Part shown: positions 38,526 to 58,037 of the stretch, piece by piece
Layout: every line of letters starts with the position of its first letter
Numbering within the stretch: position 1 is the stretch's first letter
Source: Pachyseris speciosa
Taxonomy: Eukaryota > Cnidaria > Anthozoa > Scleractinia > Pachyseridae
NCBI GenBank assembly: GCA_016490735.1
Contig: JAEMWC010001639.1
Location: forward strand, 7,501 to 71,500
Reading direction: 5' to 3'
Length of the DNA: 64,000 nt
The notes under the pieces: generated by a model
Told to the model about the DNA's origin: nothing
Seen by the model: the letters and a program-made list of their open reading frames with translations, nothing else
Databases searched by the model: none
Program-made: the position numbers and the translations under genes

Positions 38526-38616
38526 AGTACAAACTGAGAAGCGATCGACTTCGCCTAGCTGAGATGTGCTCCCTGAGCTTCTTCGCAGAAAAACGGGAAG
38601 AACTTATGTGTCCAAC
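38526..38616 (+). repeat. left half of target repeat; left target-site duplication TCCAAC (38,611-38,616)
   Basis: This matches the repeat at 25,365-25,439 up to TCCAAC and is interrupted there by the virus-like element. The same TCCAAC starts the right flank (58,038-58,043). Confidence 0.85.
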
Positions 38617-38761
38617 AGTAGTATAGTACTTGGGGTACCAGCACATTTTGAAATCAGATGATACAATTCGATGATATCGTATTTTTGGCAATCTATATAT
38701 TTTTTAAAATGCATGACTTTCTCGGAAAAATCACCGAGCGTGACATTCTCGGAAAAACAGG
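38617..38761 (+). repeat. left terminal inverted repeat
   Basis: Starts AGTAGTATAGTACTTGGGG. It matches the reverse complement of 57,892-58,037 with one indel in the G-run and about two substitutions. The match ends abruptly after the ACAGG at 38,757-38,761. Confidence 0.95.
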
Positions 38762-38851
38762 AAATGAGTCATCGCCTATAGCTATTATTTTAAGTCATGA
38801 GACGTCATGTGTTAGTAACATAAAAAATAATATCTCATATAATAGTATAGA

Positions 38852-39415
38852 ATGAGTTGTAATTCAGTAATTCACAATGAATTAAAGAATATGGAAGAGT
38901 ATACTTGTCCTTTTTGTGATCAGCAATTGGCAGAAGTTGTTAGTAGTGTGGTAGTGTCATGCTGTAGTAATCAGGAAATGGTTAACGATGATGGTAAAAA
39001 TATTTGTCTAAATTGTGGTTCAGTTCATGGTTATGATTATTGTAAAGAGTACATTGACTTTTATGAGAATATGTATAGGATACGACGGAAATCGGTATAT
39101 CATCGGAAGTACCATATTGAAAATGTGATAAATAGTATATGCCGTGAGAATGGATTTCAAATTTCTCTAAAAGATAGTGGTAAAATATTAAAAATATTAG
39201 AAGAGATAGACATGGTCCTTCCTTTAGTGAATAAGAATCGTAAAAGCATGATAAGTACGAAATTTGTCCTTAAGCAAATATTTTTAATGCTTGGTCTTCC
39301 TTTTGATAATGTGACTGTTACTAAATCAAAAAGGACACTCAAAATGTATAATGAATTTTGGGTTGAAATTCTGTTATTGATATTCGATAAAATCAAATCT
39401 ATTGTTCAGAAGTAA
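38852..39415 (+). CDS. VLTF3/TFIIB-like zinc protein (putative viral transcription factor)
   Basis: 187 residues, intact. The N-terminal part has a zinc-ribbon-like set: CPFC at ~19-22, a CC pair at ~41-42 and CLNC at ~55-58. A motif KSVYHRKYHIENVIN follows (~80-94), which resembles the conserved Y-x-R-x-x-H-F region of poxvirus-type late transcription factor VLTF3, and a helical C-terminal half fits the cyclin-like part of that TFIIB-related fold. This is motif resemblance, not an alignment. If right, it would direct late transcription of the element's own genes. Convergent with the next gene, overlapping its end by 17 bp. The upstream sequence ATAATAGTATAGAATG carries the element's start-site motif. 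Confidence 0.5.
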   Translation: MSCNSVIHNELKNMEEYTCPFCDQQLAEVVSSVVVSCCSNQEMVNDDGKNICLNCGSVHGYDYCKEYIDFYENMYRIRRKSVYHRKYHIENVINSICRENGFQISLKDSGKILKILEEIDMVLPLVNKNRKSMISTKFVLKQIFLMLGLPFDNVTVTKSKRTLKMYNEFWVEILLLIFDKIKSIVQK

Positions 39416-39903
39416 AAAATTTGTTGTATTTCGTTAAAAACTTGTCGACTATTGGACTGTTATCACAGATAAAATTGTCAGTTTGGGTCATGGTTATCTG
39501 TAAATGATTTGAATCGTAATCTCCAGATCTTAACATATTTTTGATGGAATTTAACAGATGTTGGTATGTTTGAAATGCATACACACATTGTTGTATTTTC
39601 AAATCGAGATTTTTTATGTTTCATCCATGCTTGTATCAAAACAGCAGATGTTGAAATTGCAACAAGAGCTACACCTCCTGTAGCAACAGAAGCCGCCAAA
39701 CCTCCAGATGCAAAGATGATAGAAAGTGAATTACCAAGTAACTTTATTTTTTTGAACTTTTTCATGGCTTGCTTGTACACCCAACACTTTCTATGGTATG
39801 TTTTATAATAAGATTTTAATTCATCAACTTGTTCTTTTGAAAGTTTGGCTGAAATATGGTTCCAGTTGAATATGCTTTTTCGACGTTTTATCATATATAT
39901 CAT
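39399..39903 (-). pseudogene. small protein with hydrophobic hairpin (frameshifted)
   Basis: The first 100 residues (39,903 to about 39,590) are basic at the N-terminus and then have a Gly/Ala-rich hydrophobic hairpin (LLGNSLSIIFASGGLAASVA, then VALVAISTSAVLIQAW), likely to insert in membranes. The following coding text continues in another frame (39,602-39,399), with a break near 39,595. The start is probably the second ATG (39,892-39,894), which sits on GATATATATG. I do not know a function. A virion or membrane-remodelling role is only a guess from the hydrophobic hairpin. Confidence 0.5.
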
Positions 39904-40320
39904 TTATATTATTATTCTTTTGCAAATACAATAAATTAATCCAGAGATTTGACCACATAATGGGGATCTTTTCATCCATTTTGGTGTAAGGTTTTTGGGT
40001 ATGATATATGTGTACCCTCGGTCAAATGAATAACGGTCATAGAATCGACCAAAAGCATCATGCAAAATGCTATGCGAGTGTAATACATGAATCCAACCAA
40101 GTGTTCTTTCAAAAAATCGTGTAATACAACCATTTCCTGGACCAATAAGTCCTATATCATTATGAATATATAAAATGTTGTTAATTGGAAGTATTCTTTT
40201 GAAATGCTTGAAATACAACCATACTAGGCATGATTTCAATATTGTGTCATCAATATGAATATGTTGTTGTTTGGTTTTATTAAAAAGATAGCTAACGTAT
40301 TTAATTATGTCTTCTATCAT
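39904..40320 (-). CDS. small protein with PLA2-like GPG and HD motifs
   Basis: 138 residues, intact. The middle holds IGPGNG (~58-63) followed 24 residues later by SILHDAFGRFYDR (~84-96). A glycine-rich calcium loop followed by a His-Asp catalytic dyad and a Tyr a few residues on is the layout of parvovirus-type phospholipase A2, so a second PLA2-like protein is possible, but the cysteine pattern gives no support and the match is short. It directly abuts the hydrophobic-hairpin gene and overlaps the fibre gene upstream by 4 bp (40,317-40,320). It starts on GATATAATATATG. Confidence 0.4.
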   Translation of the reverse strand: MIEDIIKYVSYLFNKTKQQHIHIDDTILKSCLVWLYFKHFKRILPINNILYIHNDIGLIGPGNGCITRFFERTLGWIHVLHSHSILHDAFGRFYDRYSFDRGYTYIIPKNLTPKWMKRSPLCGQISGLIYCICKRIII

Positions 40321-41279
40321 ATATTATATCTTTGCATTAAAATTTGATGATGATCTAAAATTGTTTTTTCATCTGATATGAAATCTAAGTACACACAGAA
40401 AAAACTGATACAACCGTCTAAAGGTGCGATTGAATTTGGATTTAAATTACCAAAAGTCATTTGTTTACTACCAGTTCTATTAGCAGATGTAAAACTTCCT
40501 ATATGTTTTTTGTTCCAATAGATTTTACTTTTTTCTGTATTTGGAGAAGATAAATTATCCCAATGAACAGATAAACAATGCCAAACATTAATTTGACTTA
40601 AATCATTTACGGAATAATCTGCTAATTTTGTGAAATTTTGTATAGATGCTGTTGGACCAAAATATACACAATTTGATTGATCAACACCACTTATAACTAA
40701 ATTTGAACCATTGTTATAGCTGACAAACTTATCATAACCTCCATTATCATGACCAAAAAGACCATTTTTCCATGGATTTCCACCTGTATTTGAATTTAAT
40801 TTATAAGCAATGTAAATATTAGCAACATCATTATTTAAATTGATTTGACTTATCATTCTCTGTGATCCATTAAACTTTAAAAAATAACGTCCATTATGTT
40901 TCTCAGCCTTGGTACAAACAGTGGGTCTTAAATTTAAAGTTGATTGAGTTGCATTATTTTCTTCATTTGAGAGATCATATAATGTTTCAACTTTTCTGTC
41001 TGCATTCATATCTACAAAATTATTATTCGCTCTGTCGATTTGATAAACACATTTTGAGTATAATCTAATATATTCAGAAACCCATAAATCTACAAAACTA
41101 TCTCTGACAATATCAGAAACTTGTGATTTAATAACGACATGATTAACATCATCGCCGGGTTTTACATTTGTCAAACGTTTGTTTTCAAGATCATAGTTCC
41201 CATCGTTTGTTAATTTAAATCCAGTTACATCTTTGCCTTTCACATTCATATGTTCTATTCTGTGGTTAAATATACCCAT
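40317..41279 (-). CDS. fibre protein 2: MGIFN anchor plus lectin/LamG-like C-terminal domain
   Basis: 320 residues, intact. The first ~45 residues (MGIFN..., then GFKLTNDGNYDLENKRLTNV) are closely similar to the N-terminal parts of the large fibre gene next door, suggesting a common virion-attachment end. The rest (from about residue 90) is a single domain with the look of a concanavalin/LamG sandwich (GRYFLKFNGSQRMIS, IYIAYKL, LSVHWDN, SFFCVYLDF), the kind used for receptor or glycan binding. It starts on TTAATATTATATG. It probably forms a short spike or an alternative receptor-binding fibre. Confidence 0.6.
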   Translation of the reverse strand: MGIFNHRIEHMNVKGKDVTGFKLTNDGNYDLENKRLTNVKPGDDVNHVVIKSQVSDIVRDSFVDLWVSEYIRLYSKCVYQIDRANNNFVDMNADRKVETLYDLSNEENNATQSTLNLRPTVCTKAEKHNGRYFLKFNGSQRMISQINLNNDVANIYIAYKLNSNTGGNPWKNGLFGHDNGGYDKFVSYNNGSNLVISGVDQSNCVYFGPTASIQNFTKLADYSVNDLSQINVWHCLSVHWDNLSSPNTEKSKIYWNKKHIGSFTSANRTGSKQMTFGNLNPNSIAPLDGCISFFCVYLDFISDEKTILDHHQILMQRYNI

Positions 41280-41295
41280 ATAATATTAATTTAGA

Positions 41296-44200
41296 TTAAT
41301 TCATGACCACTTCTAATGTAAATGCGATATCAAATGCATTTGTATTTGGATGAGAATAATCAATGATCATATATCCTCTATTCAATGTTTTGTTTACATT
41401 TACTGTTCTTATTCTTCTTGATAAAGAAGATATCCTATATTCAAATATAGTTGTTGGAAAAGTAAGTGCCTCAGCATTTTCTCGTTTATTTTTTATATAT
41501 AACATACCCGGATATGTTCCTTGAATTATATACATATTTTTAATATAATATCCATCCAAAACAATAAAATACTTACTACCGTTCAATAATACCGCTTTTA
41601 GAATACTTTTATTGTGACCACTAGAAGCTTCACAAAATCCGCTAATATAATATATATTCTTTTTTATTCGATAACCGTCTAAATCTAGATCACCTCCTAA
41701 TTTCGGCCTGTAAAGAGCAAATCCACCCAAATCGAAAGCCGTTTCCATGATTACACCTGTAACGCTTGAACGAAAAAGATTTAAACCACCGTTATGAATT
41801 CCATAGCCATTTAAATTTAAATCACCACCTAATTTTGCTTCTTTAATTAGAAAGCTATTCATGTTAATGTTATTTAGCATTGTTAACTCACCATTTTGAC
41901 CATCAAACATGTTTTTTGATTCATTTATCAAAGCATGTCCATTCAAATCTAAATCAGTTTGTAATTGTAGTTTTTCATTCACTAATTTATAAGCTTCAGT
42001 GAAGTCGTAAACACTTGATGGAACGTCTACAGCTTCAAACTCAATACCATATACAACACAAGGAACTTTGTACTTATTTGGATAAGTTGGGTTAGCATTA
42101 ATATGAATCGTACAATATAAATATTCAGGCGGTAAACTTACTGATGGTTTTTCAATCCATAACAAATATCTTGAATGATCTTCGTTTCTGTTATCAAATT
42201 TTCTCCCTACAGTTCTATGAATTGTAATTCCACCTGTTGCACTGAATGTTACACTACTGAGATTCATTCCTTCATAATCAGGAAATAGCCATTCGAGAAC
42301 AAAAGTGTATTTTCCATCTTTTATTGTGTACATATTAAATCCAATTCTAGCTCTGAAAATATGATTAGCTTCTTTATTCAAGTCTACATCAATAACCTTT
42401 TTTGAAATCATATGTGGTGAACGAGGTAAATTAATATATCCATTAAATTTCAAGCCATATTCAGTACTAACTTCATCGATATAATTCATCAAATATTTGA
42501 AAGCATTCTTTGGATGAGAAGCAGATGAAATATGACTTTTTTCTAATTGATCTAAATTTACGGCATCGGTTTTATTTGTTCCTTCTTTTAAGTTAACGAT
42601 TTTATGCCCTCCAAGTTTCATATCCGCCGTCATCACGTTTGTTCCATTCAGTAATAAAGTGTTTGCTCTGATAGTTTGTGAAGCTCGATTTAAAACTCTG
42701 AAGTTCACTGCATCAGTTTCATTCACCACGTCCGCTAAATTCGTCACATTATTTCCACTCATTGACAAATTTCCATACATCGCAGTCGAACCATCTCTTC
42801 GAAGAAAAAAGTCGTCGGCATATCTTTTTGTAACCGCATCATCTCAATCGACGGTGGAGCAAGATCAGTAATGGCATTGTTGTTCATATTTAGATTTTGT
42901 TGTGCAATCGTATCGAGTTTGGTTTGCAACCTCTGGTCCACATATTTTTTATTAACTGCATTTTCAGCTGGAGTACTATTATCAACATCTTTCAGATCTT
43001 CAATTGCATATCCAGCCATGTTCAGATTGCCCTCTGCCGGGTTGGTTCCATCCCGTTTTAGACAGCTTGCAATTTGAGAGTCAACGTAGCTTTTGTTTGT
43101 GGCGTCGAGAATATCTTTAGGGTAACCCATTCTGGTGATGAGGTTTTCCCCCATGTCCAGGTTTCCTGTCATTGCAACAGTTCCATCTTTTTTTAAGAAA
43201 TGGTGAAACATCAATGCCTGCAATTTGTGCGTCAACGTACGATTTATCAGCCTTGTTATTGATTGAAATATTTTGCAAAGCTAGTTCATCTTCAAGAAAC
43301 CCTTTCGTCACAGCGTCTTTTGAATTTAGAGGATTTCTTAAATTTATTATTCTATTATTTTTCATGTCAACATTACCACCAAACGCAACATTGCCGTTTT
43401 CAATTTCATAAGCTGGGTCATGGACAAAGTAGTTTAGATTTGAATGATAATTTTTTGCTCCATATACAATTAGATGTGTTTTTGTATAGATGTTGGAGAT
43501 GTACCTTTTAAAGTAATTATCATAAGAGCCTGACCACTCCCTGTTTTTTCTATCTGAAATAATTTTTTCAAGTATCCATCATCATTTTGAGTTCTAGGGA
43601 ATGTTTTTTGAATTGGTTGTCCCTCTTCACGCATATTAATTGTTGGAAAATCTAAATCAATAGAAGCATTAAATGGATTTCCAGATGAGAAAAACTCTGC
43701 AATAAAAGTGCATTGGCCAACATCAAGTGATGATACATCAAAACGAATTTTGGATGTGAATCTACCACTTCGTCTAATGAAAAAAGACAATGATGATTTG
43801 TTTATATGATATGGTGATCTATCATAATTCTCAATTTGAAGGTTTTCCACACCTTGTAATGAAAAAGACTTGGAATGATATGGTGATCTATCATAATTCT
43901 CAATTTGAAGGTTTTCAACACCTTGTAATGAAGAAGACTTGGATTTGTCTTTCAACAAAAATGCAAATGGATTTATTTGAAGTCCAGAAGCAGAAAATAT
44001 CATATTATCAACATATGATTTGTTTGCACTATCAGAATTTTCTGTTGGTGTTGCCACATTAGTCAATTTTTTGTTTTCGATATCATAATTCCCATCTTGT
44101 GTCAATCTAAATCCATTCCCATTATTACCTCTATCACCTTTATCACCTTTTGGACCAATTAGACCTCTATCACCTTTATCACCTTTTCACCTTTTGGACC

Positions 44201-44452
44201 AATTGAACCGCTATCACCTTTATCACCTTTTGGACCAATTAGACCTCTATCACCTTTTGGACCAATTGGAACTCTATCACCTTTATCACCTTTTGGACCA
44301 ATTGAACCGCTATCACCTTTATCACCTTTTGGACCAATTGGACCTCTATCACCTTTTGGACCAATTGGACCTCTATCACCTTTTGGACCAATTGAACCTA
44401 TGTTACCAGTTCTTGTATTGTCTTGATTTGGTAAAAAGTTGAATATACCCAT
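41296..44452 (-). pseudogene. fibre protein 1: collagen-like stalk, phage-type fibre repeats (frameshifted)
   Basis: One gene of roughly 1,000 residues is read in five frames: 44,452-44,159; 44,105-43,470; 43,365-43,117; 43,235-42,759; 42,780-41,296. It begins MGIFNF, followed by collagen-type GPKGDRGPIGPKGDRG repeats, then the DGNYDIENKKLTNV block. Next come repeats of the phage tail-fibre kind (NxxLTNVATPTENSDSANKSYVD, DATNKSYVDSQI, NAVNKKYVDQRL, TDAVNLDQL) and a long beta-rich C-terminal region with LGGDLDLDGY repeats. Breaks lie near 44,190 (inside the collagen repeat), 43,400-43,470, 43,190 and 42,770. A 69-bp in-frame tandem duplication is at 43,808-43,945. It would be the elongated receptor-binding fibre. 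It starts on CTAATATTATATG. Confidence 0.7.
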
Positions 44453-44463
44453 ATAATATTAGA

Positions 44464-45105
44464 TTATATTATACCATAAAAGTTTCTCTTAACTGTTTTC
44501 ATTGGTTTGTCAACATAACAGAAGGAATATGGTTTTTTAGTTGCTTCAATATACTTTTGCTTATCAATTCCAAGTTCTTGGGATATAAAGTTTCTCTCCC
44601 TTGTAGATGGAAAATCATAAAGGCAGAAGTGGCTACAATTAAGCCTAATAGATTTTGGGCATCCATAGAATGACTGCGTTAGGTATAACACACTGCAATT
44701 TTTGTGACGACCTTGAATGAAATAGCTGATGATTTGATCTTGTTTTTTATCAGTCACGAAATCATCGAACACAACCAGTCGCTGCAATTCACTGTCTTTA
44801 ATTTGTTCAACTGGTAAAATTTCATCTTGACTGCAAATTAAAACTGGGTAACCAACTTGTTTGCTTATTCCATCCATAACTTGCTGTAAATATCGATATT
44901 TGTCTTGATCCAAGTTTTTGGCGTATAGATGTATTTGATCGTAATAGACTAATGGTTCCATAATCAAATGCAAAAATAATGTTGTCTTTCCGGATCCAGA
45001 ATTTCCAGCCAATAACATTGTCAATGTATCTTTAGGCATATACTGATACAATTGTCTGAAAGACTTGTTTGAATTCTGAATAATGTCATAATTTGGAATT
45101 TCCAT
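44464..45105 (-). CDS. FtsK/HerA (A32)-type genome-packaging ATPase
   Basis: 213 residues, intact, near the usual length for Polinton ATPases. Walker A is LAGNSGSGKTTLF (~residues 32-44). Walker B is RLVVFDDFVTD (~107-117), with an acidic pair, followed by a QGRHKNCSVLYLTQSF stretch (sensor region). This family pumps DNA into preformed capsids in Polintons, virophages and large DNA viruses. It is divergently arranged with the next gene, 32 bp apart, so they probably share a control region with the A/T start motif in both directions. No disruption was seen. Confidence 0.9.
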   Translation of the reverse strand: MEIPNYDIIQNSNKSFRQLYQYMPKDTLTMLLAGNSGSGKTTLFLHLIMEPLVYYDQIHLYAKNLDQDKYRYLQQVMDGISKQVGYPVLICSQDEILPVEQIKDSELQRLVVFDDFVTDKKQDQIISYFIQGRHKNCSVLYLTQSFYGCPKSIRLNCSHFCLYDFPSTRERNFISQELGIDKQKYIEATKKPYSFCYVDKPMKTVKRNFYGII

Positions 45106-45137
45106 ATGTTAATTGTTTAGATAACTATCTAACTAAT

Positions 45138-46021
45138 ATGTATATGGATGTAGATCGTATGAAAAGGCTTCTTCGAAGTGGAATAGAAGCTGGAAATAAG
45201 ACGACAGAAGTTCGTGAGGTTATCAAGACTTACGAAAACAGAAAACAGGATGCATATGATGAAACATCAGAATTACTGAAACCTTCTATTGATGCTCAGA
45301 TGAAGGTTAAAAAAACTATTGACGATAAACAGGATAAAGTTATTGAACAGTTGAAAAAGAATCAAAAAGCGTTAACAAGTGGATTTGAAGATCTTATGCT
45401 TTTAAACACATTACCTGCATCGGAACCTACGCAAACAACAAAATTACCAATTGATTATAAACCAGAAATGATGTCTGAAACAAAATCACCTTATAAGTCA
45501 AATCTTGATAAGGGTTTCACACTAGATGAGATTCAAACATTGATGAAATATAAGTTACCTCCTCCATCAGAAATACTTGATTCATACGTGGATGGAACAA
45601 TAAATATTAATGACTATGATGCAAATATTGGTAAATTAACCAAAGAACTTGGAGGTAAAAAGGACTACTATCAAAAACCAAAAAGGATAGGGATAATAAT
45701 AAAGGAAAAATATATGAATTAACTCAAGACATCAAATTACTACAAAAGTACCGAAAAAGAATTGATCTTATCGAAGAAGGCTCAAAAACTATCGGTAAAG
45801 GTATTAGAAAGAGAAAAAGACAATATGGAGCAGGTGTTATTCATTATAATAATATCGGTGAATTGCTTTCACGACTCCAGTTACTTGGTGGGTCTATTTT
45901 TGCTGGCAATAACAGTGCAGATGTCAGAGATGAATTCACAAACATATTGCATGTATTAAGCAGACTGAGTATTGTTGGAAACGAGGAGCTCAATAAAATA
46001 ATGATTAAATATCTAATGTAA
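45138..46021 (+). pseudogene. conserved-looking virion-region protein of unknown function (one frameshift)
   Basis: From the ATG at 45,138 (or 45,144) a frame runs to 45,722. A second frame continues in register of sense to TAA at 46,019-46,021, about 290 residues in all. The break falls at the A5 run near 45,685-45,690. The first half is a charged, probably coiled-coil helix region (RMKRLLRSGIEAGNKTTEV, KKTIDDKQDKVIEQLKKNQK). The C-terminal part is a compact helical domain (ELLSRLQLLGGSIFAGNN). I do not recognise the family. Its position between packaging ATPase and minor capsid suggests a virion-assembly protein. Confidence 0.5.
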
Positions 46022-46027
46022 TATTGT

Positions 46028-46813
46028 ATGACAGAAATTTCATTACGATTCAACAGTAAACACAGAGACAAAATTGGTGTCAGTCAGAGTCATGATTTCA
46101 CAAAAAGATTTAATACTCCTCTCGTATTATCGAATGATCTGAAATATGAAATCGCTGTAAAGACTATCAATATGACATACAGTTGGTATAACATCAGAGA
46201 ATCTTTTGGGAAAAATCAAATTAAATATAGCCATGACAAAGGTGCAAACTGGGAAACAATAACATTCGTTGATGGAATGTACTCATATGATGACATCAAT
46301 AGTTACATTCACGAGTATATGAGAAAAAATGGACATGTACTGAATCCATCTGAAACAGACGAATCAAAATTTGATTATGGTATTGATATGTTTTTCATTT
46401 TATCAACATATCGTATTTTGATCAAACTTGATGAAAACTATCGAGTGGATCTGAGAGATCTTGAATTCAGAAAACTTATCGGTTTCGATTCAAAAATAGT
46501 TTCAGCCACGGAATATGGAACAAACTTGCCAGATATAACACGCGGAGTAGATGAAATTTATATTAATTGTGATAAGGTGATAGATAGCATCGTTGATGGA
46601 AATTCCACAAGTACTATTGCAGTCATTCCAGTCACAGAACTTGTCAGAAGTTTACCTTTCACTTACAAACCTCGTTTTCTTTCATGGAATCCTGTCTCAA
46701 CACATACAATCAGCTCAATACATTTTTATGTCACTGATTCTTCCGGAGCTCCAGTTGATTTGAACGGGATAGATTGGTATATTGAGATATTCTTGAGAGG
46801 GACGGAATTATAA
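46028..46813 (+). CDS. minor capsid (penton) protein, single jelly-roll type
   Basis: 261 residues, intact, the right length for the Polinton minor capsid protein that forms the pentameric vertices. It begins ISLRFNSKHRDK and is beta-rich throughout with little Cys. Typical stretches are KYEIAVKTINMTYSWYNI near residue 40 and a C-terminal SIHFYVTDSSGAPVDL ... WYIEIFLRG, which fit the strands of a jelly roll. Assignment rests on length, composition and its place just before the major capsid gene. It starts on TAATATTGTATG, 7 bp after the preceding stop. Confidence 0.65.
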   Translation: MTEISLRFNSKHRDKIGVSQSHDFTKRFNTPLVLSNDLKYEIAVKTINMTYSWYNIRESFGKNQIKYSHDKGANWETITFVDGMYSYDDINSYIHEYMRKNGHVLNPSETDESKFDYGIDMFFILSTYRILIKLDENYRVDLRDLEFRKLIGFDSKIVSATEYGTNLPDITRGVDEIYINCDKVIDSIVDGNSTSTIAVIPVTELVRSLPFTYKPRFLSWNPVSTHTISSIHFYVTDSSGAPVDLNGIDWYIEIFLRGTEL

Positions 46814-46826
46814 AACCTAATAGTAT

Positions 46827-47120
46827 ATGAAACGATTTGAGTATAAGAAATATGAACAACATGGTGAAGGTGTCCTGACTGACATCATCAAAACAATTGG
46901 AAAAAAAGCAGCTGAAAATACAGCTACAACAATTGGTGAATATACTGGCAAAAAAGCTGGTGACAAAATAATAGAACTTTTGAGCAAGAGCAAGAGTGGG
47001 AGCGAGAGCAAAAAAAAGAGAGCTAAGCCACGCAAAACAGATACTAAACCTTTGACGCATAAAGAAGTTAATGAAAGACTCAGTCAACTTATCTCAGGTG
47101 GAAAACTAATAAATAAATAA
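46827..47120 (+). CDS. small basic virion protein with amphipathic N-terminal helix
   Basis: 97 residues. Residues ~13-50 (GEGVLTDIIKTIGKKAAENT...) form a likely amphipathic helix with Gly/Ala spacing. They are followed by a Ser/Lys-rich basic linker (SKSKSGSESKKKRAKPRK) and a short helix. The combination of a membrane-active-looking helix and a basic tail recalls the cleaved core or lytic peptides of adenovirus-like particles, a guess from composition only. It lies between minor and major capsid genes with 13- and 22-bp gaps. It starts on CTAATAGTATATG. Confidence 0.5.
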   Translation: MKRFEYKKYEQHGEGVLTDIIKTIGKKAAENTATTIGEYTGKKAGDKIIELLSKSKSGSESKKKRAKPRKTDTKPLTHKEVNERLSQLISGGKLINK

Positions 47121-47142
47121 CTTTTATCTAACCAAATGATAT

Positions 47143-48421
47143 ATGTCAAACTATCGTGACTCAAAATATATCGAACGATATGAAGATGTGGTCTTCGAAC
47201 TCGAGACAGCATTAAACACAGTTGCTGCAAACAATGATCATCAGAAGAAAACAGGTTACCGTTTCGTTGTTGATAACAGTGGAGAGACTACACCATTTGA
47301 TTGGTTCAATGCTCGTTTAAATGTTGTTTTCATCGTAAAGAAGCTTGCAGATGGAGCTGATATAGCTGCTGATGATAGAAACGGTATCGTTAATTCAGTT
47401 CACGCTCTAATTAACACCATAAATGTAAAAATGAACGGCATTGATGTTTATGAATGCCGAGATGCTAACCAAGCTACAAATATTAAATCATTGCTTGAGT
47501 ATTCACAAGGTTACGCTTCAAGTCAAGGAACAAATGAGTTCTTCTATTTTGACACTAACAGACATGCTGAAGACAGAGTGGCCCAAGCTAATTATAACAA
47601 AGGATTCGCATCTCGTAAATTGCTGTTGAATGGTGCAAATGGTACTGTAAATTCAGAAATATCATTGAACAGATATGGATTTTTCAAGAGCCTTTGGGAT
47701 GAACTTTTGCCTAACTCTAAAACAGAGGTAAACCTAACACTTGAAAGCGATGATAATTTAATTTGGCAAGCTGCTGATAATTGTCGTGTAGTACTCACCA
47801 AATTTCAACTAATTGTTCCTCGTATTATTTTCAATGCTGAAGGTAAAAAACTATACATGAGCAAATATCTTGATACAAGAAAGTGGACTTATATGAGAGA
47901 AATGGTTGAAAGGGGTAACTCAACAAGACAACAATTTCCGTATTTCAACAGGAATAAACAAACCGAGGCATGTATTTGTATTCATTATCAATGATGCCAA
48001 TGATGAGTCTCAGACAGCCAATAAATTTCTCTATAAGACATTTTCAGTTGCAAATAACCGAACAATGACAAATTGTTATCTCGAAGTTGGTAATGGAAAT
48101 GATTATCCATAGGTTCATTATAAACCATCAACAGAACCAACAAGAGTATTCAGAGATGTTTTGAAATACGTTCAAACCATCAACGACTTCAGTGATAGCA
48201 CCTTGCTTAACAGAGGTCACTTCGGTTCAATATTCCCTTTCATTTATTTTGATTTGACGAAACAAAAACAGGATATAGAAGACGGAATGACGAAACTGAC
48301 TTTCAAATATAATTTGAGTGCTGGAACAAACGCAGATTATAGTGTGTATGCACTAGTTCTCTATGAACAGGACATTGAGATGAGAAAGACAGATGGTAAA
48401 CTTGTTTTGAGATCCATGTAA
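47143..48421 (+). pseudogene. major capsid protein, double jelly-roll (frameshift and stop)
   Basis: About 425 residues in total. The N-terminal part (47,143 to about 47,940) has the family look: FELETALNTVAANNDHQKK, RFVVDNSGETTPFDWFNARL (start of the first jelly roll), then VHALINTINVKMNGIDVYE and NCRVVLTKFQLIVPRI. A frameshift near 47,940 moves the reading to the frame of 47,906-48,112. That frame is interrupted by a TAG at 48,110-48,112 and then runs open to 48,421 (FGSIFPFIYFDL). This is the trimeric hexon-type capsid protein of Polintons. Both lesions must be real or both sequence errors for the gene to be judged. It starts on CAAATGATATATG. Confidence 0.85.
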
Positions 48422-48452
48422 TTGTGTCTAATGATATATGACACTTTCACTG

Positions 48453-48530
48453 AATAAATAATTAAATAAATTAAATAAATTAAATAATTAAATTAAATAA
48501 TTAAATAAATAATTAAATTAAATTAAATCA
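48453..48530. repeat. (TTAAATAA)-type A/T tandem repeat
   Basis: Imperfect units of AATTAAATAA fill the gap between the capsid gene and the next start. There are no G or C bases over most of the run. Confidence 0.7.
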
Positions 48531-48570
48531 TTGTTTATATTAAATACAATTTAGTATAAACATATATTAT

Positions 48571-49418
48571 ATGACTACTTATTACCCTCATGGAGTTAAA
48601 CTTTCACAAGGTCAGGAAGAAAAACTAGCAAAAGCCATAAAATCAAATTCAGCTGTAACATTGAGGTTATCGCATAGGGAATTATCAGGCAATGATCAAC
48701 TTATGTTGACTAAAAGACAAATAAACAAACTGATGAAATCAAAAAGATTAGGAAAAGGTTCAGATATTTCTATATCAAAAACTCAAATCAGAAAAGCTGT
48801 TGTACATGGAGGTTCTCTTTGGACATCTTTGTTTTCACTTGGAACAAAACTATTGCCATATGCAACTACCGCTGTATCAAAGGCAGCTCCAGCATTGGCT
48901 ACAGGTGCTCTTTCTTCATTAGCAAGTCTCGGTGTTGATAAATTATTTGGAAAGAAACAAAAAGGATGATTTCTTATTCCACAAGACAAAATTAATATGT
49001 TAATAGCTTACAAGGATATGTTGACAAAGAAGCAGAAAGAAGATATTGTCAATGCGATGCATTCTGGTGGACAACTTGTTATCAAACCAACAAAAAATTA
49101 GTCTGGTGGGTTTTTTGGAACACTTTTGGCGAGTATTGGAATTCCAATGTTAATAAATGCCTTGACTGGAAAAGGTTTGCATGTTGAACACAGACGTCCA
49201 AGAAGGTCATTACCAGTTCATGTTCCAGATCCCATTGCAAAAAATAAAAGTGGTGGAAAACATGTTTCGATTCCATGGAGATCACCCCCAGTTGTTGGTA
49301 CATGGGATAACCCAATCGGTTTTGGAATGAAAAAAAAAAAAAGACCTCAGGAAAAGGACTTCTATTGGGCAAAAACAGTCCATTAAATTCAATCCCAATA
49401 CTAGGAACAATACTCTAA
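48571..49418 (+). pseudogene. minor virion protein (three breaks)
   Basis: The open part (48,571-48,969, 132 residues) starts TTYYPHGVKLSQGQEEK and ends in a long Ala/Ser-rich hydrophobic helix. The same frame goes on past a TGA (48,967-48,969) and a TAG (49,099-49,101). It then crosses A13 at 49,330-49,342 into another frame ending GKNSPLNSIPILGTIL at about 49,418. Hydrophobic segments (FGTLLASIGIPMLINALTGK) suggest membrane contact. I recognise it only as a protein that commonly sits between capsid and protease genes in this kind of element; function unknown. It starts on CATATATTATATG. Confidence 0.5.
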
Positions 49419-49876
49419 AATTCATAAATAAAGCATTATCCAACTTTGATTTATTGGATTGGGTGAAACAACTTGGAATAAAAAATTTTAGAGGAGTCTT
49501 TAGTCGGGATGCTTTGCCGAGACAAATCAAAAACAAAGAATGTGGAATAGTTAATCTTGACAGTCGGATTGGACCAGGCACTCATTGGGTATGTTATCGT
49601 AATATGGACACATACTGTGAATACTTCGACTCTTTCGGTTTGATGATGCCAACAGAAGTTCAAAAATATATGATGACAAGCGGTAAACAACTTGAATACT
49701 CTGGTGATGAGATACAAGAAAAAGATTCAGTCTTGTGTGGATATTGGTGTTTGTACTATCTTCTCGAGCGACAAAAAGGTAGATCGATTCTGAATACAAT
49801 ACATAATTCCAAATTCAGTTCAACAGATGCGAGTGTCAATCACAGATTCATCATAGACTACTTCGAAAATATCTAA
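49334..49876 (+). CDS. adenain-type cysteine protease (no ATG in the open frame)
   Basis: Catalytic residues are visible: His in GTHWVCY, acidic residue in EYFDSFGL, Gln near the middle and Cys in LCGYWCLYYL. A KNFRGVFSRDALP motif lies at the start of the domain. This Ulp1/adenain-like protease matures capsid and minor proteins. The frame is open from 49,334 but holds no ATG before the catalytic core; the stop TGA just upstream overlaps the A13 run. Either the start has been lost to an indel or the protein is made by frameshifting from the preceding gene. Ends 13 bp before the next gene. Confidence 0.85.
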   Translation, partial: KKKDLRKRTSIGQKQSIKFNPNTRNNTLKFINKALSNFDLLDWVKQLGIKNFRGVFSRDALPRQIKNKECGIVNLDSRIGPGTHWVCYRNMDTYCEYFDSFGLMMPTEVQKYMMTSGKQLEYSGDEIQEKDSVLCGYWCLYYLLERQKGRSILNTIHNSKFSSTDASVNHRFIIDYFENI

Positions 49877-49888
49877 CTAATATGTATT

Positions 49889-50956
49889 ATGGTAAAATCA
49901 TATTGCGTTAAACAGAAGAAAGTAACTGAATGTGTACCAGGAAGTGAAAGATATGAAAAGACAAAAAATGGTCGAACAATGCTGAAATGTACTTGTGCTG
50001 AATGTGGGATAACAAAGACTAAATTCATTAAGAACCAGGGAAACGGGGTAGCCCGCACGAAGGGGCGGGCATACTAGATTCAGCCGCAGACATGGCACTT
50101 ACAGGGTTTCTTCAGCATGGAGTTCCTTTTCTAGCAAAGAAGGAGTTGAAATGGGGAGATATTATGCATCAGAGGCATTGAGAAATCCAAAACTTCAGCG
50201 GCGTACGATTGACTATGGCATAAAAAAGCAACTCCCATTTTACAAAAGGTTGGGACAGAAGCTTTAAATCAACTCTCAACTAAAGTGCGACCAAACATTC
50301 ATTACAAAACAGACATCAAGGGATTGGATTATGGAAGTGGTATCCCCATTCCTTTCCCTTTTGTTGATTTAAAAAAGGGGTGGGATGTTATTTCAAACCC
50401 CAATCTTTTCAAAGGGCCTGAAGTTACACCTGAGGAGGGGAGAAGAATGGTAGCCTACTATAAGAGCCAGTACGCTGAATATAAAAAGAAAGGCGGAACA
50501 CGAAGCTACGGTTCTTGGATAAAATGGAAGGGATACGGCAGAGGATTGGGTGGTGCTGTCGATATTCATAAAGCTATTGGTAAGCTTCCTAAACCAAAAT
50601 CAGGTTGGACTTTGCCTGGTCATAATTACACAGATCCATACAATCCTCTTCATAAGCAGCTTAAACACCATCCAACAACAGGTGAAATACTTGAGATATA
50701 TCAGCAGCCAACGGGTAAGACAGATGCAATCGCCATGCAGCATGATGTTGATTATTCTGTTTGTAAAGACGACAGGAAATGTAAAAATAAAGCAGACCGA
50801 AAAATGGTCCAAGCTTTAGACAACGTACCGTATAATGAAAGACAATGGGGTCATTGGTTAGCTCGTAATGTCATTGATACTAAGCAGAAACTAGGTCTCG
50901 GAGTTCCAAAAAACGGAAAAAGCCGTCGAGTGAAGAAAACTGGCAAGAAAAATTAG
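49889..50956 (+). pseudogene. zinc-ribbon plus parvovirus-type PLA2 minor capsid protein (frameshifted)
   Basis: The first frame (49,889-50,077) is a zinc ribbon: YCVK, then CTCAECG after ~28 residues, with a basic KTKFIKNQG end, like the DUF5679 type. Coding text continues in other frames (50,060-50,285) with breaks near 50,050, 50,140 and at the A6 run near 50,226. It ends in a long frame to 50,956. That last part has a PLA2-like domain: LPGHNYTDPYNPLHKQL (substrate/calcium loop region) and AMQHDVDYSVC (His-Asp dyad and Tyr), then a basic C-terminus. Such a domain lets incoming parvovirus and related capsids breach endosomal membranes. The first ATG sits on CTAATATGTATTATG. Confidence 0.7.
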
Positions 50957-51796
50957 CAGATGAATTACATACACCCATAAAACGCAATTTCACTCGGCGG
51001 CGTGTGATTGCAAATAAAATTGATGAAATATGGGCAAGTGATCTAGTTGAAATGCAACAGTCTAGTAAATGGAATAAAGGTTATCGATATCTTCTTATGG
51101 TTATTGATGTCTTCAGCAAATATGGTTGGAAAACCACAATATCTATGGGTCGATAAGGGTAAAGAGTTCTATAACAAACACTTGAAGGACTTGCTAGAGA
51201 AAAATGAGATACACATGTACTCCACCGAGAATGAAGAAAAGTCCTCAGTGGTTGAAAGATGAAATCGAACAATCAAGTCCAAAATGTGGAAGCAGTTCAC
51301 TGTTCAAGGTAATACACAGTATTTAGACATGTTACCAAAATTAGTGAAAAAGTATAATAATACCAAACATTCAAGCATAAAGATGACACCCACAGAAGCC
51401 AGTAAAAAGAGGAATGAAGGTATAGTTTACTTTAATCTATATGGTGATATGGAGCCATTATCAGCTAAACCAAAATTCAAGGTTGGTGACAAGGTCCGAA
51501 TATCTAAGTATAAACGGAATGTGTTCGACAAGGGCTATACACCAAATTGGACAGAAGAAGTGTTCACAGTTGATAAAATACAATACACTAATCCAATTAT
51601 ATACAAACTAAAAGATCTCAGAGGTGAAGATATTCAAGGGAGTTTTTATGAACCTGAGTTATTAAAGGCTAAACAAGAGGTATTTAGATTCATTCGGAGA
51701 GATTATAAAAAGAAGCAAGCTTTGGTGAAGTGGAAGGGATATAGTGATGATTTTAACAGCTGGATACCAATGAAGGATTTAAAGAATATTATCTAA
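50890..51796 (+). pseudogene. retroviral-type integrase with chromodomain (deletion, frameshift, stop)
   Basis: The reading begins in a frame overlapping the end of the PLA2 gene (ENWQEKLADELH near 50,940) and contains IDEIWASDLVEM, the first catalytic Asp. It shifts frame near 51,120, where about 35 residues between the first and second Asp are missing. WVDKGKEFYN gives the second Asp and ENEEKSSVVER the Glu. A TGA follows at 51,260-51,262, where the family has Trp, and the frame then runs open from NRT-type text to 51,796. The C-terminus carries an SH3-like part and a chromodomain (VKWKGYSDDFNSWIPMKDL). It would insert the element with 6-bp duplications. This copy is dead. Confidence 0.85.
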
Positions 51797-51899
51797 TATA
51801 TATTATATCAAACGATACAGTATATACTGTTATTTGCTATTATGTAGCAAAAAATATGATTGTTTCTGGTTATTTAATTTTCTAATGGAATAATATAGT

Positions 51900-52703
51900 A
51901 TGACTGAAATTTTCATTTATGAAGGAACTAAACTAAATATTATAAAAAAGGATGATGACATATGGTTCAAAGCCAAGACTGTTGCTAAAATCTTAAAGTA
52001 TACAAATACTCGTAAAGCTATTCGTGATCATGTTGATTCTGAAGATAAAGTCACTTTAAACAACCTCAAATCTAGGGGGAACGATTCGTTCCCCCTAAAA
52101 AATGACCATGTGATTTATATAAATGAATCTGGACTGTACAGCCTCATTTTCAGATCTGATATGGACAAAGCAAAGGAATTCAAACGATGGGTCACAAAAG
52201 AGGTTTTACCATCAATCAGAAAAACAGGACGGTATGAATATAACCAGAAACCTTTCAAAATGTTAACTTTCAATATACAGTCAGAGTATGACTTACATAA
52301 AAAAGTGGTTAACTATATAAGAAACCATCATCCAAAAGCACTTTTAAATGCATCACTAGGTGAAAACCAAATAAATAGTAATATGAGATTAAGATCTTAT
52401 AATATGGGTTATCAAAAAGGATCACCTGATCTGATCATTCAAAATCTACATAAAGTGTATTCAGGATTTGCTATTGAATTTAAAAACCCTAGAGGTAATG
52501 GGCGATTATCAGAGGACCAAAAAGTAATGTTGCAAGAGTATAGAAACAACAATTTTAAAGTGTTAGTCAGTAATGATTATGATGAAATTCTAGAAGAAAT
52601 CATTCATTATTTTGATGGAGTAAGGATCAAATGTAATAACTGTTCTAGAAAATTCAAGTCATCAAAAACATTAAAAAACCATTCAAAATACATACATAAA
52701 TAA
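51900..52703 (+). CDS. BRO-N + VRR-NUC-type nuclease + C2H2 zinc finger fusion
   Basis: 267 residues, intact. Residues 1-~112 are a BRO-N domain (IWFKAKTVAKILKYTNTRKA, ESGLYSLIF, AKEFKRWVTKEVLPSIRKTG), a DNA-binding domain common in phage antirepressors and large DNA viruses. Residues ~128-225 look like a VRR-NUC/PD-(D/E)xK nuclease: KGSPDLII, FAIEFKNPRGNGRLSEDQ and the following helix supply the Asp, Glu-x-Lys and Gln. Residues ~240-266 form one C2H2 finger (CNNCSRKFKSSKTLKNHSKYIH). The combination suggests a sequence-targeted endonuclease or a regulator with nuclease activity. It starts on AATAATATAGTATG after a 104-bp gap from the integrase. Confidence 0.75.
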   Translation: MTEIFIYEGTKLNIIKKDDDIWFKAKTVAKILKYTNTRKAIRDHVDSEDKVTLNNLKSRGNDSFPLKNDHVIYINESGLYSLIFRSDMDKAKEFKRWVTKEVLPSIRKTGRYEYNQKPFKMLTFNIQSEYDLHKKVVNYIRNHHPKALLNASLGENQINSNMRLRSYNMGYQKGSPDLIIQNLHKVYSGFAIEFKNPRGNGRLSEDQKVMLQEYRNNNFKVLVSNDYDEILEEIIHYFDGVRIKCNNCSRKFKSSKTLKNHSKYIHK

Positions 52704-52736
52704 CTATATATAAAGATAAAACAATATATAATATAT

Positions 52737-53017
52737 ATGGAGAATAAGAATGTTAAAAGTGGTCGTGGAAGGCCACCAATATATAAAACTGAAGAAGAAA
52801 AAAAAAAGCCAATAAAAAATATAAGAGAGCATACATGATGAATAGAGAATGGTATTGTGACATATGCAACAATGGTAAAAATTACACATTGTCTGGTAAA
52901 TGGTGTCACTTGAAAACAAAAAAGCATTTCAACAATATGAAGTCAGGTGTTGATGAGGAGAGACACATCAATTTGATCATGAATAACAATTGTGATATTA
53001 TAAATTCCATTATGTAG
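52737..53017 (+). pseudogene. small AT-hook plus C2H2-type zinc-finger protein (one frameshift)
   Basis: The frame from ATG 52,737 encodes KSGRGRPPIYKT, an AT-hook core (RGRPP), and stops at TGA near 52,836. Shifting at the A10 run (about 52,797-52,806) leads into WYCDICNNGKNYTLSGKWCHLKTKKHF, a C2H2 finger of the matrin/U1 type, ending at TAG 53,015-53,017. In total about 93 residues. It is likely a DNA-binding accessory protein. The start lies on AATATATAATATATATG. Confidence 0.55.
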
Positions 53018-53174
53018 ATTAATGATTCACAAAAATAATACAGTTCAAAGGATTCATACAATGAATCATTTGAATTATCAACCATACTTAAAACGCAGAT
53101 GGAAGTCATTTAAAAAGAAAAGCCTATAGATATAATATATATGATATCAGAAAAAAATTATCTCAACCAATAGT

Positions 53175-56100
53175 ATGGATAAGAAGAGTCTCAAGAAACT
53201 CAGTAAATCTCAACTCATCAAATTGCTATTAAAGCAAGAAAAGAAGAAGCCTAAAATTATTGTGGTAGATGATACCAAACCAGTGCCTACACCAAGAACT
53301 GTAAAGCCAGTACCAGCACCTCGCAAGAGTGTAAAACAAATGGTTCAAGATTATGAAAACGACATAATTCTTCCACCATTAGAATTTAGGGATGATTACA
53401 AACCAATACCCAAACCAAGAACTTACAAACCAAAACCAGTACCAACACCTAGAACTAAGATAGAGCTTTTAGATAAATCTTTGAAAGGTTATACTGAGTC
53501 TTATGAAGTAAATATAAAAAATGACAAAGACCCGCTAGCGCAACTACAAAACACAAGAAAGGCAATCGAAAAACATATTGAAAAATTGTTGAATGAAATG
53601 AAAGGACTGAAATTTGTCGAAACACTAAAGGTAACATTCACAAAAACATCAGATGGACAAATAGAGTATAAGACCGCATATTTCAACAGTGTAGCTCAAA
53701 CAATTGTGAATAATCTGGAAGTTGTTGAATCACTAAAAATATCAAAACAGCAAATCTTGAATAAAATAGCTGTATGGGTATCTGAAGGTTCTGGTTGGAC
53801 TATTGAATCTGTTGACAATCATTACCTCAATGTTGTCAAATATCAACCAATGAAAGGCTCCTCATACATAAAACTACCACAGGAACTCAGAAACAATGAA
53901 AAGGGATTGATTAATATGAAAAATGAGGATAATGAATGCTTCAGATGGTGTCACATCAGCCATTTGAATCCACAACACAAAAACCCACAGGGAATCAAAA
54001 AATAAGACAAGGAATATGTCAAAAATTTAGATTATTCAGGGATTGAATTTCCAGTGACTACCAAACAGTACAATAAAATTGAGAAGCAAAATGACATCAA
54101 TATCAATGTTTTCGGTTATGAAGATAAACAACCATATCCAATTTATGTCTCAAAAGAAAAATATGAAGACTTATGAATCTGCTTCTAATAACTGAAAATG
54201 AAAACAAGCACTATGTGTTGATCAAAGATTTCAACAAGTTAATGTACAATCAGACAAAACACAAAGAAAGAAAACATTTCTGCATGTATTGTCTTCAATG
54301 CTTCAGCTCTGAAAGAGTATTAACTGATCATAAAGAAAACTGTATTCAAGTGAATGGCACACAAGCGATAAAAATGCCAGAAAAAGGTAAAAACATACTA
54401 AAATTCAACAACTTCCATAAACAACTGCCCACACCATTTGTAATCTATGAAGACTTTGAGGCTATAACTGAAAAGATATCCGGTTGTCAACCTAATAATG
54501 ATAAATCATACACAGAAGCATACCAGAAGCACACAGACTGTGGATATGGCTACAAATTGGTTTGTTGTTATGATGACAAATACACGAAACAAACACAAAT
54601 ATACAGAGGTGAAAAAGCCGTTTACAAATTTATGGAAGCTATGCTGGAGGAAGTCAAATATTGCAAAAATACCATGAAAAAGGAATTCAACAAACCATTG
54701 AAAATGACGAAAGATGATGAGGAGGAATTCCAAAAAGTCAAAGAATGCCACATTTGCAATAAAAAATACAGTGATAAAGATATTCAAGTCCGAGATCATT
54801 GCCATATCACTGGTAAATACAGAGGCTCTGCCCATCAAGAATGTAATCTGAAACTTAGAGTAAACCCAGAAGAAATAAAAATACCTGTTATATTCCACAA
54901 TCTGAGAGGTTATGATAGTCATTTCATTATGCAAGAGATTGGTGAAATTGTCAAGAAACACACTTAGACAAATAAGAAAGGTGAAAAGTGTCAAATGGCA
55001 ATCAATGCTATACCCAACAACCTGGAGAAGTATATGGCTTTCATGCTTGGTAATCACCTCACATTCATCGATAGTTTCCAATTCATGAGCTCAAGTTTGG
55101 ATAGACTAGTCAGTAATCTTCCTAAAGAAGCCTTGAAATATACCTCTCAAAAATTCAAAGGTGAAAAGCTTGATCTGATGTCACAAAAAGGGGTCTACCC
55201 TTACGACTACATGGACAGTTTCGATAAATTCAATGAAAAACTACCAACAAAAGAAGAATTTTACAGCATATTAAATGATAAACATATATCAGACGAAGAC
55301 TATACACATGCCCAGAATGTGTGGAATACATTCTCTCTCAAAAATATGGGTGAGTATCATGATCTGTACCTGAAATCTGACATCCTCCTATTAGCTGATG
55401 TATTTGAAAACTTCAGGAAAACATGCCTTGAATACTACAAACTGGACCCATGTCATTATTTCACGTCTCCAGGGCTTTCGTGGGATGCTATGCTTAAAAT
55501 GACTGACATTAAACTAGAGCTTATGGTTGATATTGATATGTTTCAATTCATTGAAAAGGGTATGCGTGGAGGAATCAGTTATATAGCAAACCGATATGGA
55601 AGAGCAAACAATAAATACATGAAAGAATACGATGAGAAGGCGCCCTCAAAGTATGTCATGTATCTCGATGCTAATAATCTATACGGTTGGGCTATGACTC
55701 AATACCTTCCAACAGGCGGATTCAGATGGATGACAGAAACGCAAATCGATAAGATAAACCTAGCAAAGTACCAAGAAGATAGCAACAAAGGTTTGATACT
55801 TGAAGTTGATTTAGAATACCCCCAAGAGTTACATGATCTGCATAATGACTAACCACTTGGACCGGAAAAGATTAAAGTGACCGAGGACATGCTATCAGAT
55901 TATTGCAAAAACATCGCGAAGAAATACAAGATATCAACTGGTTTGGTACATAAACTGATACCAACATTAAGCAACAAAGAAAAATACGTGCTTCATTACA
56001 GAAACCTTCAACTCTATACAAATCTCGGTTTAAAAATAACGAAAGTCCATCGAGTACTAGAGCTCAATCAGTCCGCATGGTTGAAGCAATATATTAATTT

Positions 56101-56923
56101 CAACACTCAGAAAAGAACTAATGCTAAAAATGCCTTTGAGAAAGACTTTTTCAAGCTGATGAATAACAGTGTATTTGGAAAAACAATGGAAAACCTCAGA
56201 AAGCGAGTAGACGTCAGATTAGTCACCGATGAAAAGAAACTATTAAAAATGGCTGCTAAACCGACATATGTTAGCAGTAAAATATTCAATGAAAATCTAG
56301 TAGCTGTGCATAAGATTAAAGAAACACGTACCCTTAACAGGCCGGCATATGTGGGTATGTGCATCTTGGATCTAAGCAAGACGTTAATGTATGATTTTCA
56401 TTATAACTACATCAAAAATAAATATCATAACAAAGCCAAATTACTATTCACAGACACTGGCTCATTAACATACGAAATTGAAACCGAAGACGTCTATAGA
56501 AATTTCTGGAACGATAAAGATAAATTCGATAACAGCGACTACCCTGAAAACTCACCGTATTTTAATAAGTCAAATAAAAAAGTAATTTGTAAATTCAAAG
56601 ATGAAGCCGCAGGAGTTCCCGTTTGTGAATTCATCGGTCTACGATCAAAAATGTATAGCTACATGAAAGACAACCAAACAGGAGGAAAGACTGCTAAAGG
56701 GATCAAAAAGAACGTCATTAAAAAGAACATTCAACATGAAAACTATAAAGAGACACTCTTCAATAATAAACAGATACACCATAAAATGAAAACAATAAGA
56801 AGTCAAAATCATCAATTAGGAAGTTATGAAATCAATAAAGTATCACTCAGCTGTTTCGATGATAAGCGGTATATTCATGATAATGGTGTGACAAGCTACG
56901 CATACGGACATTATAAAATCTAA
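53175..56923 (+). pseudogene. protein-primed DNA polymerase B (multiple lesions, motif C changed)
   Basis: About 1,250 residues over several frames. The N-terminal part (53,175-54,005) has Pro-rich PxPAPRK repeats and a domain ending in SHLNPQHKNP. The exonuclease domain has VIYEDFEAI (Exo I, near 54,450) and HNLRGYDSHFIM (Exo II, near 54,900), with zinc-knuckle-like CYCLQCF and CHICNKKYSDKD...HCH. The polymerase domain has LDANNLYGWAM (motif A, near 55,665) and KLMNNSVFGKT (motif B, near 56,155). Motif C reads FTDTGSL (56,447-56,467), where the family has a second Asp. Lesions: TAA 54,003-54,005; a frameshift near 54,170; TAG 54,965-54,967; TAA 55,850-55,852. The enzyme would replicate the linear genome from a terminal protein. 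Confidence 0.9.
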
Positions 56924-57871: not shown

Positions 57872-57891
57872 AGTATAGTACTTGGGGGTTC

Positions 57892-58037
57892 CCTGTGTTT
57901 CCGAGAATGTCACGCTCGGTGATTTTTCCGAGAAAGTCATGCATTTTAAAAAATATATAGATTGCCAAAAATACGATATCATCGAATTGTATCATCTGAT
58001 TTCAAAATGTGTTGGTACCCCCAAGTACTATACTACT
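57892..58037 (-). repeat. right terminal inverted repeat
   Basis: Reverse-complement partner of 38,617-38,761. Just inside it, AGTATAGTACTTGGGGGT (57,872-57,889) is an inverted copy of the outermost 18 bp of this same repeat (58,017-58,034), so the right end is bounded by the terminal motif on both sides. Confidence 0.95.

Follow-up and report, generated by a model that had tools for sequence, protein, structure and literature searches.

Candidate two-class, bipartite promoters at the start codons of a Polinton/Maverick element in the coral Pachyseris speciosa

Polintons are integrated in nuclear DNA, and how those of animals express their capsid genes seems open. Here we describe an A/T-rich motif at the start codons of a Polinton/Maverick element in Pachyseris speciosa (GCA_016490735.1), contained in a window of 64,000 nucleotides (the whole stretch analysed; contig JAEMWC010001639.1, positions 7,501 to 71,500). 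The closest described systems are viral or virus-like. The late motif of Cafeteria roenbergensis virus (CroV) and the mavirus promoter are both TCTA flanked by A/T (PMC5294985, PMC8547959). Vaccinia intermediate and late promoters are bipartite, with an A/T core and an initiator at which the start codon lies (PMC5294985), and yeast pGKL elements have one short box before each gene, the upstream conserved sequence (UCS) ATNTGA, plus an initiator. The median distance from box to transcription start site is 11 nt in the yeast elements, compared with 12 nt for early genes of vaccinia, and the same paper notes a hypothesis by which large DNA viruses and the yeast elements branched from a Polintovirus that gained transcription genes (PMC6211774). 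Such genes are said not to have been reported in Polintoviruses (PMC6211774), and VLTF3 not to be detectable outside Nucleocytoviricota (PMC11253617). No promoter motif for animal Polintons was found in the literature searched on Polinton promoters and VLTF3, a search that most subscription papers lay outside.

The element spans 38617-58037 (19.4 kb, 33% GC) and reaches beyond the interval 38820-53180 covered by the first-pass annotation of this DNA. It has the terminal inverted repeats (arms 38632-38764 and 57889-58021, 98% identical) and the 6-bp target-site duplication (TCCAAC at 38611-38616 and 58038-58043) of a Polinton/Maverick, and the window copy is partly decayed. Recognised in it are a VLTF3-like gene, an A32-type ATPase, a weak adenain-like protease, phospholipase A2-like and BRO-N/VRR_NUC genes, pieces of PolB, and fibre genes resembling collagen and the YadA stalk. 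The genes at 46028 and 47143 we take, from position, to be the capsid genes mCP and MCP; database searches with the two gave no informative match, and a PDB sequence search with MCP, whose reading frame is broken in the window copy, gave no matches.

At most of the start codons examined, on either strand, an A/T motif lies directly against the ATG or overlaps it, beyond what base composition explains. Sixteen starts were examined, chosen from 24 listed ATGs plus 48997; eleven starts of decayed fragments (42780, 43211, 43365, 44003, 49147, 49604, 50447, 51284, 54173, 54995 and 55889) were omitted on open reading frame (ORF) and homology grounds, yet after the upstream sequences had been seen. 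For the gene at 45138/45144 both in-frame ATGs were tried, and the second, 45144, served as the start in most tests. TAATA lies within -25..-1 of 11/16 starts versus 24/303 AT-rich other ATGs (p 1.7e-8, or 1.8e-5 once corrected for 1024 5-mers), and TAATAT in the same interval of 10/16 versus 12/303. Within 25 nt upstream, TCTAA occurs at 8 of the 16 starts against 10 of the 303 other ATGs, and ATCTAA at 7 against 5. A leave-one-out weight matrix distinguished the starts from 880 other ATGs (p 2.3e-9, with one start placed 1 base off) and, at an AT content of at least 0.8, 14 starts from 123 ATGs (p 6.5e-5). With 45138 as the start, the TAATA count of 10/16 was matched by 55/1000 shuffles, which is the weak point of this enrichment; TAATAT at 9/16 was then reached by 2/1000 shuffles and 0/1000 AT-rich ATG sets, and with 45144 as the start the TAATAT count was reached by none of the 1000 in either control.

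The first-pass annotation had described a single motif, TAATA-N1-2-TATATG. A start-codon motif is real and enriched, but this wording is incomplete: the literal pattern fits only three of the nine examples given for it (46827, 44452 and 41279). TATATG overlaps seven of the nine, and the four literal sites in the element (0.08 expected) all lie at starts. As the whole story the literal motif was rejected. An upstream box, TCTAA, and the variant TATCTCA at the VLTF3-like and PolB genes had also been overlooked.

As read from the sequence, the signal is in two parts: box 1, TATCTAA, and then a TAAT/AATA...TAT stretch that runs into the ATG. Five genes, distributed over the two strands, have TCTAA starting exactly at -16 (41279, 45105, 45144, 46028 and 47143), and of seven TCTMA-N0-3-YAATA sites in the element, a number reached by 2/300 shuffles, six are at starts. 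General enrichment of TCTAA in the element was considered and rejected, as its 54 sites compare with 60.6 expected in shuffles; what is special is thus position, not abundance. The ATPase (45105, minus strand) and gene 45144 (plus strand) have divergent starts, whose ATGs are 38 nt apart. Here the inverted repeat TTAGATA-AC-TATCTAA (45117-45132) supplies one box 1 per gene, each arm being that of its own gene, and the putative promoter of 45144 (45126-45143, plus) reads TATCTAACTAATATGTAT before the ATG. The promoters of mCP (46010-46027, plus) and MCP (47125-47142, plus) have the same spacing, the former overlapping, by eye, the end of the preceding coding sequence, and that of the fibre-like gene 41279 (41280-41296, minus) reads ATCTAA N11 ATG with TAATATTATATG.

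We compared these starts with related copies, all from one genome of 984 Mb in 2368 contigs. Scored were 150 of 3820 candidates for the ATPase, 146 of 3697 for gene 46028, 150 of 1980 for the VLTF3-like gene and 140 of 2734 for the PolB N-terminus (166 matches); because only the best candidates were scored, the true numbers of copies may be higher and close copies are over-represented, the best 150 ATPase copies being 92-100% identical and 143 of them free of stops. The first 38 loci represent 36 places, since the window's own element appears among them twice (L001 and L009), as does one other element (L006 and L033). Copies lacking an ATG at the expected place, or matching later than the first 8 residues, were excluded from the counts, and for genes 48571, 48997, 49889 and BRO 51900 the relatives that could be used were too few for comparison. 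TCTAA recurs at -16 before five genes: in 27/32 places for the ATPase, 16/33 for 45144, 34/34 (all with an ATG start) for mCP, 27/29 for MCP and 5/8 for the collagen-like fibre gene 44452, whose window promoter (44453-44464, minus) has it at -11. It occurs there in 0/229 windows before nine conserved internal ATG codons (four in the ATPase, two in mCP and three in VLTF3; none was usable in MCP). Before gene 46827 the recurrence fails, as described below, although TAT precedes the ATG in 30/30 copies. The earlier statement that almost no room is left for a 5' untranslated region is supported by the position of the motif at the window starts and in these copies.

Divergence among the copies is lowest at the two ends of the motif. 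In mCP it is 0.008 for box 1 and 0.020 for the TAT before the ATG, versus 0.193 at fourfold sites; in MCP the values are 0.059 and 0.000 versus 0.247, with TAT present in 29/29 places. Box 1 and the last bases before the ATG are thus the frozen parts, since both diverge little and the stretch between them does not. Information content in MCP rises from 0.68 bits at -45..-23 to 1.66 at -22..-12 and 2.00 at -3..-1 (25 distinct sequences). Genome-wide, TATCTAA-N11-ATG has 6864 sites versus 2159 in the control, and the form with spacing one base shorter, TATCTAA-N7-TATATG, only 69 versus 24. The Polinton family is very large in this genome: one exact MCP promoter version with its ATG, TTATCTAACNCAATAATATATG (one free base), has 1257 sites, not individually checked for an MCP frame and all of the form TATCTAA-N8-TATATG, against 0 for the reversed control. 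To judge from these sites and from the close, mostly stop-free ATPase copies, the family looks young. Divergent families in the same genome were sought with a homolog ~52% identical to the window protein; the listed matches were 53-57% identical to that homolog, and many fell where copies of the window's family had already been located. No DNA relatives were found in the IMG/VR, GTDB contig or phage records searched.

Box 1 comes in two versions. Among distinct upstream sequences, TCTAA lies at -22..-8 in 18/21 for the ATPase, 8/18 for 45144, 30/30 for mCP, 24/25 for MCP and 4/7 for the fibre gene (84/101 together), versus 0/13 for 46827, 0/26 for the VLTF3-like gene and 1/25 for PolB. The last two instead have TCTCA, TCGAA, TCGCA, TCCCA or TCTCG at -28..-8 (VLTF3-like 21/26, PolB 16/25, together 37/51), a set found in 1/114 sequences of the other six genes. 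The motif is shared by both strands, as had been claimed, but the genes do not have it in one form: TATCTAA stands before most genes of the structural side, gene 46827 has no TCTAA box, and the VLTF3-like and PolB genes have the TCTCA/TCGAA type. In the window the VLTF3-like promoter (38831-38851, plus) consists of TATCTCA, ATAATAGTATAG and a short linker to the ATG at 38852. Of 35 sequences, 26 keep its core, ATCTCA-N-ATAATA(G/T)TATAG, whole and 33 the second box of that core, and the linker is A in 25, absent in 5, AA in 4 and unclassified in 1. The two boxes mostly hold their mutual spacing while the distance to the ATG varies by 0-2 nt, which speaks for transcription; by eye, several unrelated upstream sequences adjoin the core. 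The PolB promoter (53159-53174, plus) reads TATCTCAACCAATAGT before the ATG. An A5-tract as a mark of this class (17/26 VLTF3-like, 21/25 PolB) was weakened by its presence in 14/25 MCP sequences. In some copies (L050 and L089) the VLTF3 core is, by eye, immediately preceded by sequence like the interior of the terminal repeat, which in L089 replaces box 1.

A VLTF3-like factor gene is present, as the first-pass annotation had noted, and is maintained as far as its coding sequence tells. It lies at 38852-39415 on the plus strand and encodes a putative VLTF3-like/TFIIB-like transcription factor (PF04947, E 1.3e-4; at 22.1 bits the window copy is below the gathering score of 25). PF04947 matches 28/31 rows, comprising the window copy and 30 of 409 homologs, with a best E of 1.4e-7, so that the profile matches to this Nucleocytoviricota family are weak but family-wide, here in a Polinton. 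The gene recurs in the Polinton family and has 409 homologs among public proteins. It is stop-free in 137 of the 150 scored genomic copies (best of 1980 candidates), and across 14 copies divergence at codon position 2 is 0.105 versus 0.315 at fourfold sites. Fold searches gave hints of both a zinc ribbon and a cyclin-like fold, the match covering residues 67-187 of the VLTF3 model and barely its N-terminal part; a PDB sequence search with the VLTF3-like profile gave weak matches only (E 0.055 or worse). Vaccinia A2L is VLTF3. It belongs to the intermediate class (PMC5294985), and in a comparable way the VLTF3-like gene of the Polinton has a box-1 variant of its own.

We infer that the boxes act as promoters. 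Box 1 would be a factor-binding core at a fixed short distance upstream of the TAAT/AATA...TAT stretch, the most likely site of transcription initiation, at or shortly before the ATG; because this stretch generally continues into the ATG, the mRNAs would be all but leaderless. That box 1 has two versions suggests two expression classes, replication/control and structural genes, whose timing we predict from gene function. No RNA polymerase domain was found in the 27 element ORFs scanned with Pfam, a subset of the ORFs in a partly decayed copy, and the polymerase is for that reason probably borrowed. The earlier suggestion of a programme independent of host promoters consequently finds no support, as either the host or a helper virus probably provides the polymerase. 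The best candidate for steering it is the VLTF3/TFIIB-like protein that the element itself encodes; host RNA polymerase II (Pol II) with this protein is our first choice as reader of the boxes, and a helper giant virus the main rival. Taken as a whole, the reading that, in a large Polinton family, most of the genes examined have compact, bipartite, self-directed promoters of two classes, served by a borrowed polymerase, is one we favour by a narrow balance of probability.

Several points weigh against this reading. Copy counts are not independent, because the copies are related and from one genome; only some eight gene starts can be counted as independent. The list of TCTCA/TCGAA-type variants and the start 45144 were picked after the sequences had been seen. 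In AT content the internal-ATG control lies below the ATPase and mCP starts (0.63-0.68 versus 0.82-0.87), and TATATG occurs at 0/32 ATPase starts yet in 31/121 internal ATPase ATG windows. TCTAA is missing from 30/30 copies of gene 46827 and from -16 in 17/33 places of gene 45144, and some of the 6864 TATCTAA-N11-ATG sites are a coding repeat, also present at window position 51501. Constraint on ATPase box 1 is mild (0.168 versus 0.235 at fourfold sites). The stretch at -11..-4 shows no extra conservation in mCP (0.206 versus 0.193) and only slight conservation in MCP (0.205 versus 0.247); since it is so little conserved, the case for box 2 comes from its last bases and from enrichment. Anchored at the ATG, the VLTF3 promoter appears unconserved (0.43-0.55 versus 0.315 at fourfold sites) and aligns only with indels allowed in the linker, and the PolB promoters are heterogeneous. 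The short distance from box to ATG is also unlike that of a Pol II TATA box.

In an alternative modelled on what has been proposed for mavirus and CroV, the boxes would be copies of a helper giant virus's late promoter, and during co-infection the RNA polymerase of that virus would transcribe the element. Box 1 contains the TCTA of the CroV late/mavirus motif, an endogenous mavirus-like element (EMALE type 4) bearing that motif was reactivated by CroV (PMC10945749), and the lack of a recognised polymerase in the scanned ORFs fits as well. We nevertheless consider this virophage-like arrangement unlikely, as the host looks animal, the element carries its own VLTF3-like factor, and TCTA is not kept in most VLTF3-like and PolB promoters. 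More doubtful still is a reading in which the boxes are plain, short core promoters of the TATA/initiator type for host Pol II and the VLTF3-like protein does something else. The nuclear location of Polintons, known in general, the A/T-richness of the boxes and, again, the missing polymerase agree with it; a spacing fixed at 11 nt does not resemble a TATA box, which lies 25-30 bp upstream of the start site (PMC5294985), and neither do two classes of box 1, and the 38 nt between divergent ATGs leave no room upstream.

Shared ancestry plus A/T-rich intergenic sequence, and nothing more, is very improbable as an explanation. The element's GC content, the relatedness of the copies and the mCP stretch at -11..-4, which evolves like fourfold sites, are what it would predict, but box and spacing are common to five different genes within one element, AT-rich other ATGs mostly lack the motif, and box 1 and TAT of mCP and MCP diverge far less than fourfold sites. 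Least probable of all is a translation-initiation context of leaderless or short-leader mRNAs: TAT before the ATG is indeed the most constant part beside box 1 in MCP and mCP, yet TCTAA sits 11 nt upstream of the ATG, and the VLTF3 boxes mostly keep their mutual spacing while the distance to the ATG shifts.

In sequence the window motif is most like the CroV/mavirus TCTA motif and not the poxvirus TAAATG proposed at first. TAAATG is found in 0/165 distinct upstream sequences of eight genes and at 1/16 window starts (39903, by eye), so the poxvirus late initiator TAAAT(G/A) was rejected. As in CroV, mavirus and EMALE type 4, a Polinton-related element among them, a TCTA core stands in an A/T-rich stretch upstream of genes (PMC5294985, PMC8547959, PMC10945749). 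Unlike in CroV and mavirus, TATCTAA is here fixed 11 nt from the ATG in five genes and joined by a second A/T stretch, one class has a variant without TCTA, the host is of animal type with no known helper, and the element has a VLTF3-like gene of its own. The bipartite layout with the start codon at the initiator is shared with vaccinia, whose initiator is however TAAA/TAAAT (PMC5294985); a viral polymerase, moreover, was not recognised among the scanned ORFs here. With pGKL the element shares one short box before each gene, and its 11 nt from box 1 to the ATG, the ATG and not the start site being the point measured here, resembles the box-to-start-site distance of 11-12 nt in pGKL and vaccinia (PMC6211774). 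The box sequence differs, conserved columns by eye being TATCTAA or TATCTCA rather than the yeast UCS ATNTGA, and pGKL encodes its own RNA polymerase. It is a tentative suggestion, below even chances, that this is an animal Polinton with its own Nucleocytoviricota-style transcription programme, comprising a VLTF3/TFIIB-like factor, two bipartite promoter classes and a viral box-to-start geometry. If true, the family would offer a present-day counterpart of the transcription-competent Polinton from which, according to that proposal, both the large cytoplasmic DNA viruses and the virus-like elements of yeast arose. A family with 1257 exact promoter sites in one genome makes the points on transcription genes in Polintoviruses and on the confinement of VLTF3 directly testable.

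Three further starts have related upstream sequences. Gene 46827 has a promoter-like stretch without TCTAA, CCTAATAGTAT before the ATG (46816-46826, plus), and the BRO-N/VRR_NUC gene 51900 one with TCTAA at -19 (51881-51899, plus), its ATG lying at the expected place in just 3/9 relatives. The promoter of gene 49889 reads TATCTAACTAATATGTATT before the ATG (49870-49888, plus; window copy only), and this upstream stretch is nearly identical to that of gene 45144; the small protein encoded at 49889-50077 has a DUF5679 match slightly under the cut-off.

Among the other genes, the packaging ATPase (Pox_A32 family) lies at 44464-45105 on the minus strand (PF04665, E 3.7e-14), PolB matches PF03175 (E 1.2e-11), and the adenain-like protease match (PF00770, E 0.0048) is below the cut-off. 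A phospholipase A2-like domain at 50285-50956 (PF08398, E 1.5e-8) is of the kind known in parvovirus VP1. The integrase is seen as a remnant by eye at 51284-51796 with a C-terminal chromodomain piece (PF00385, E 1.3e-7). The fibre-like genes at 40317-44452 combine a YadA stalk (PF05662) with collagen repeats; in their region, a 75-nt stretch is 77% shared between 41164-41238 and 44056-44130, and 43806-43943 is a 69-nt tandem duplication. Outside the Polinton the window holds G-protein-coupled-receptor-type genes (PF00001) at 1771-2619 and 58351-59622, which point to an animal genome. Just inside the right end of the element (57871-58035), 22 nt from the end of the terminal repeat occur a second time, inverted.

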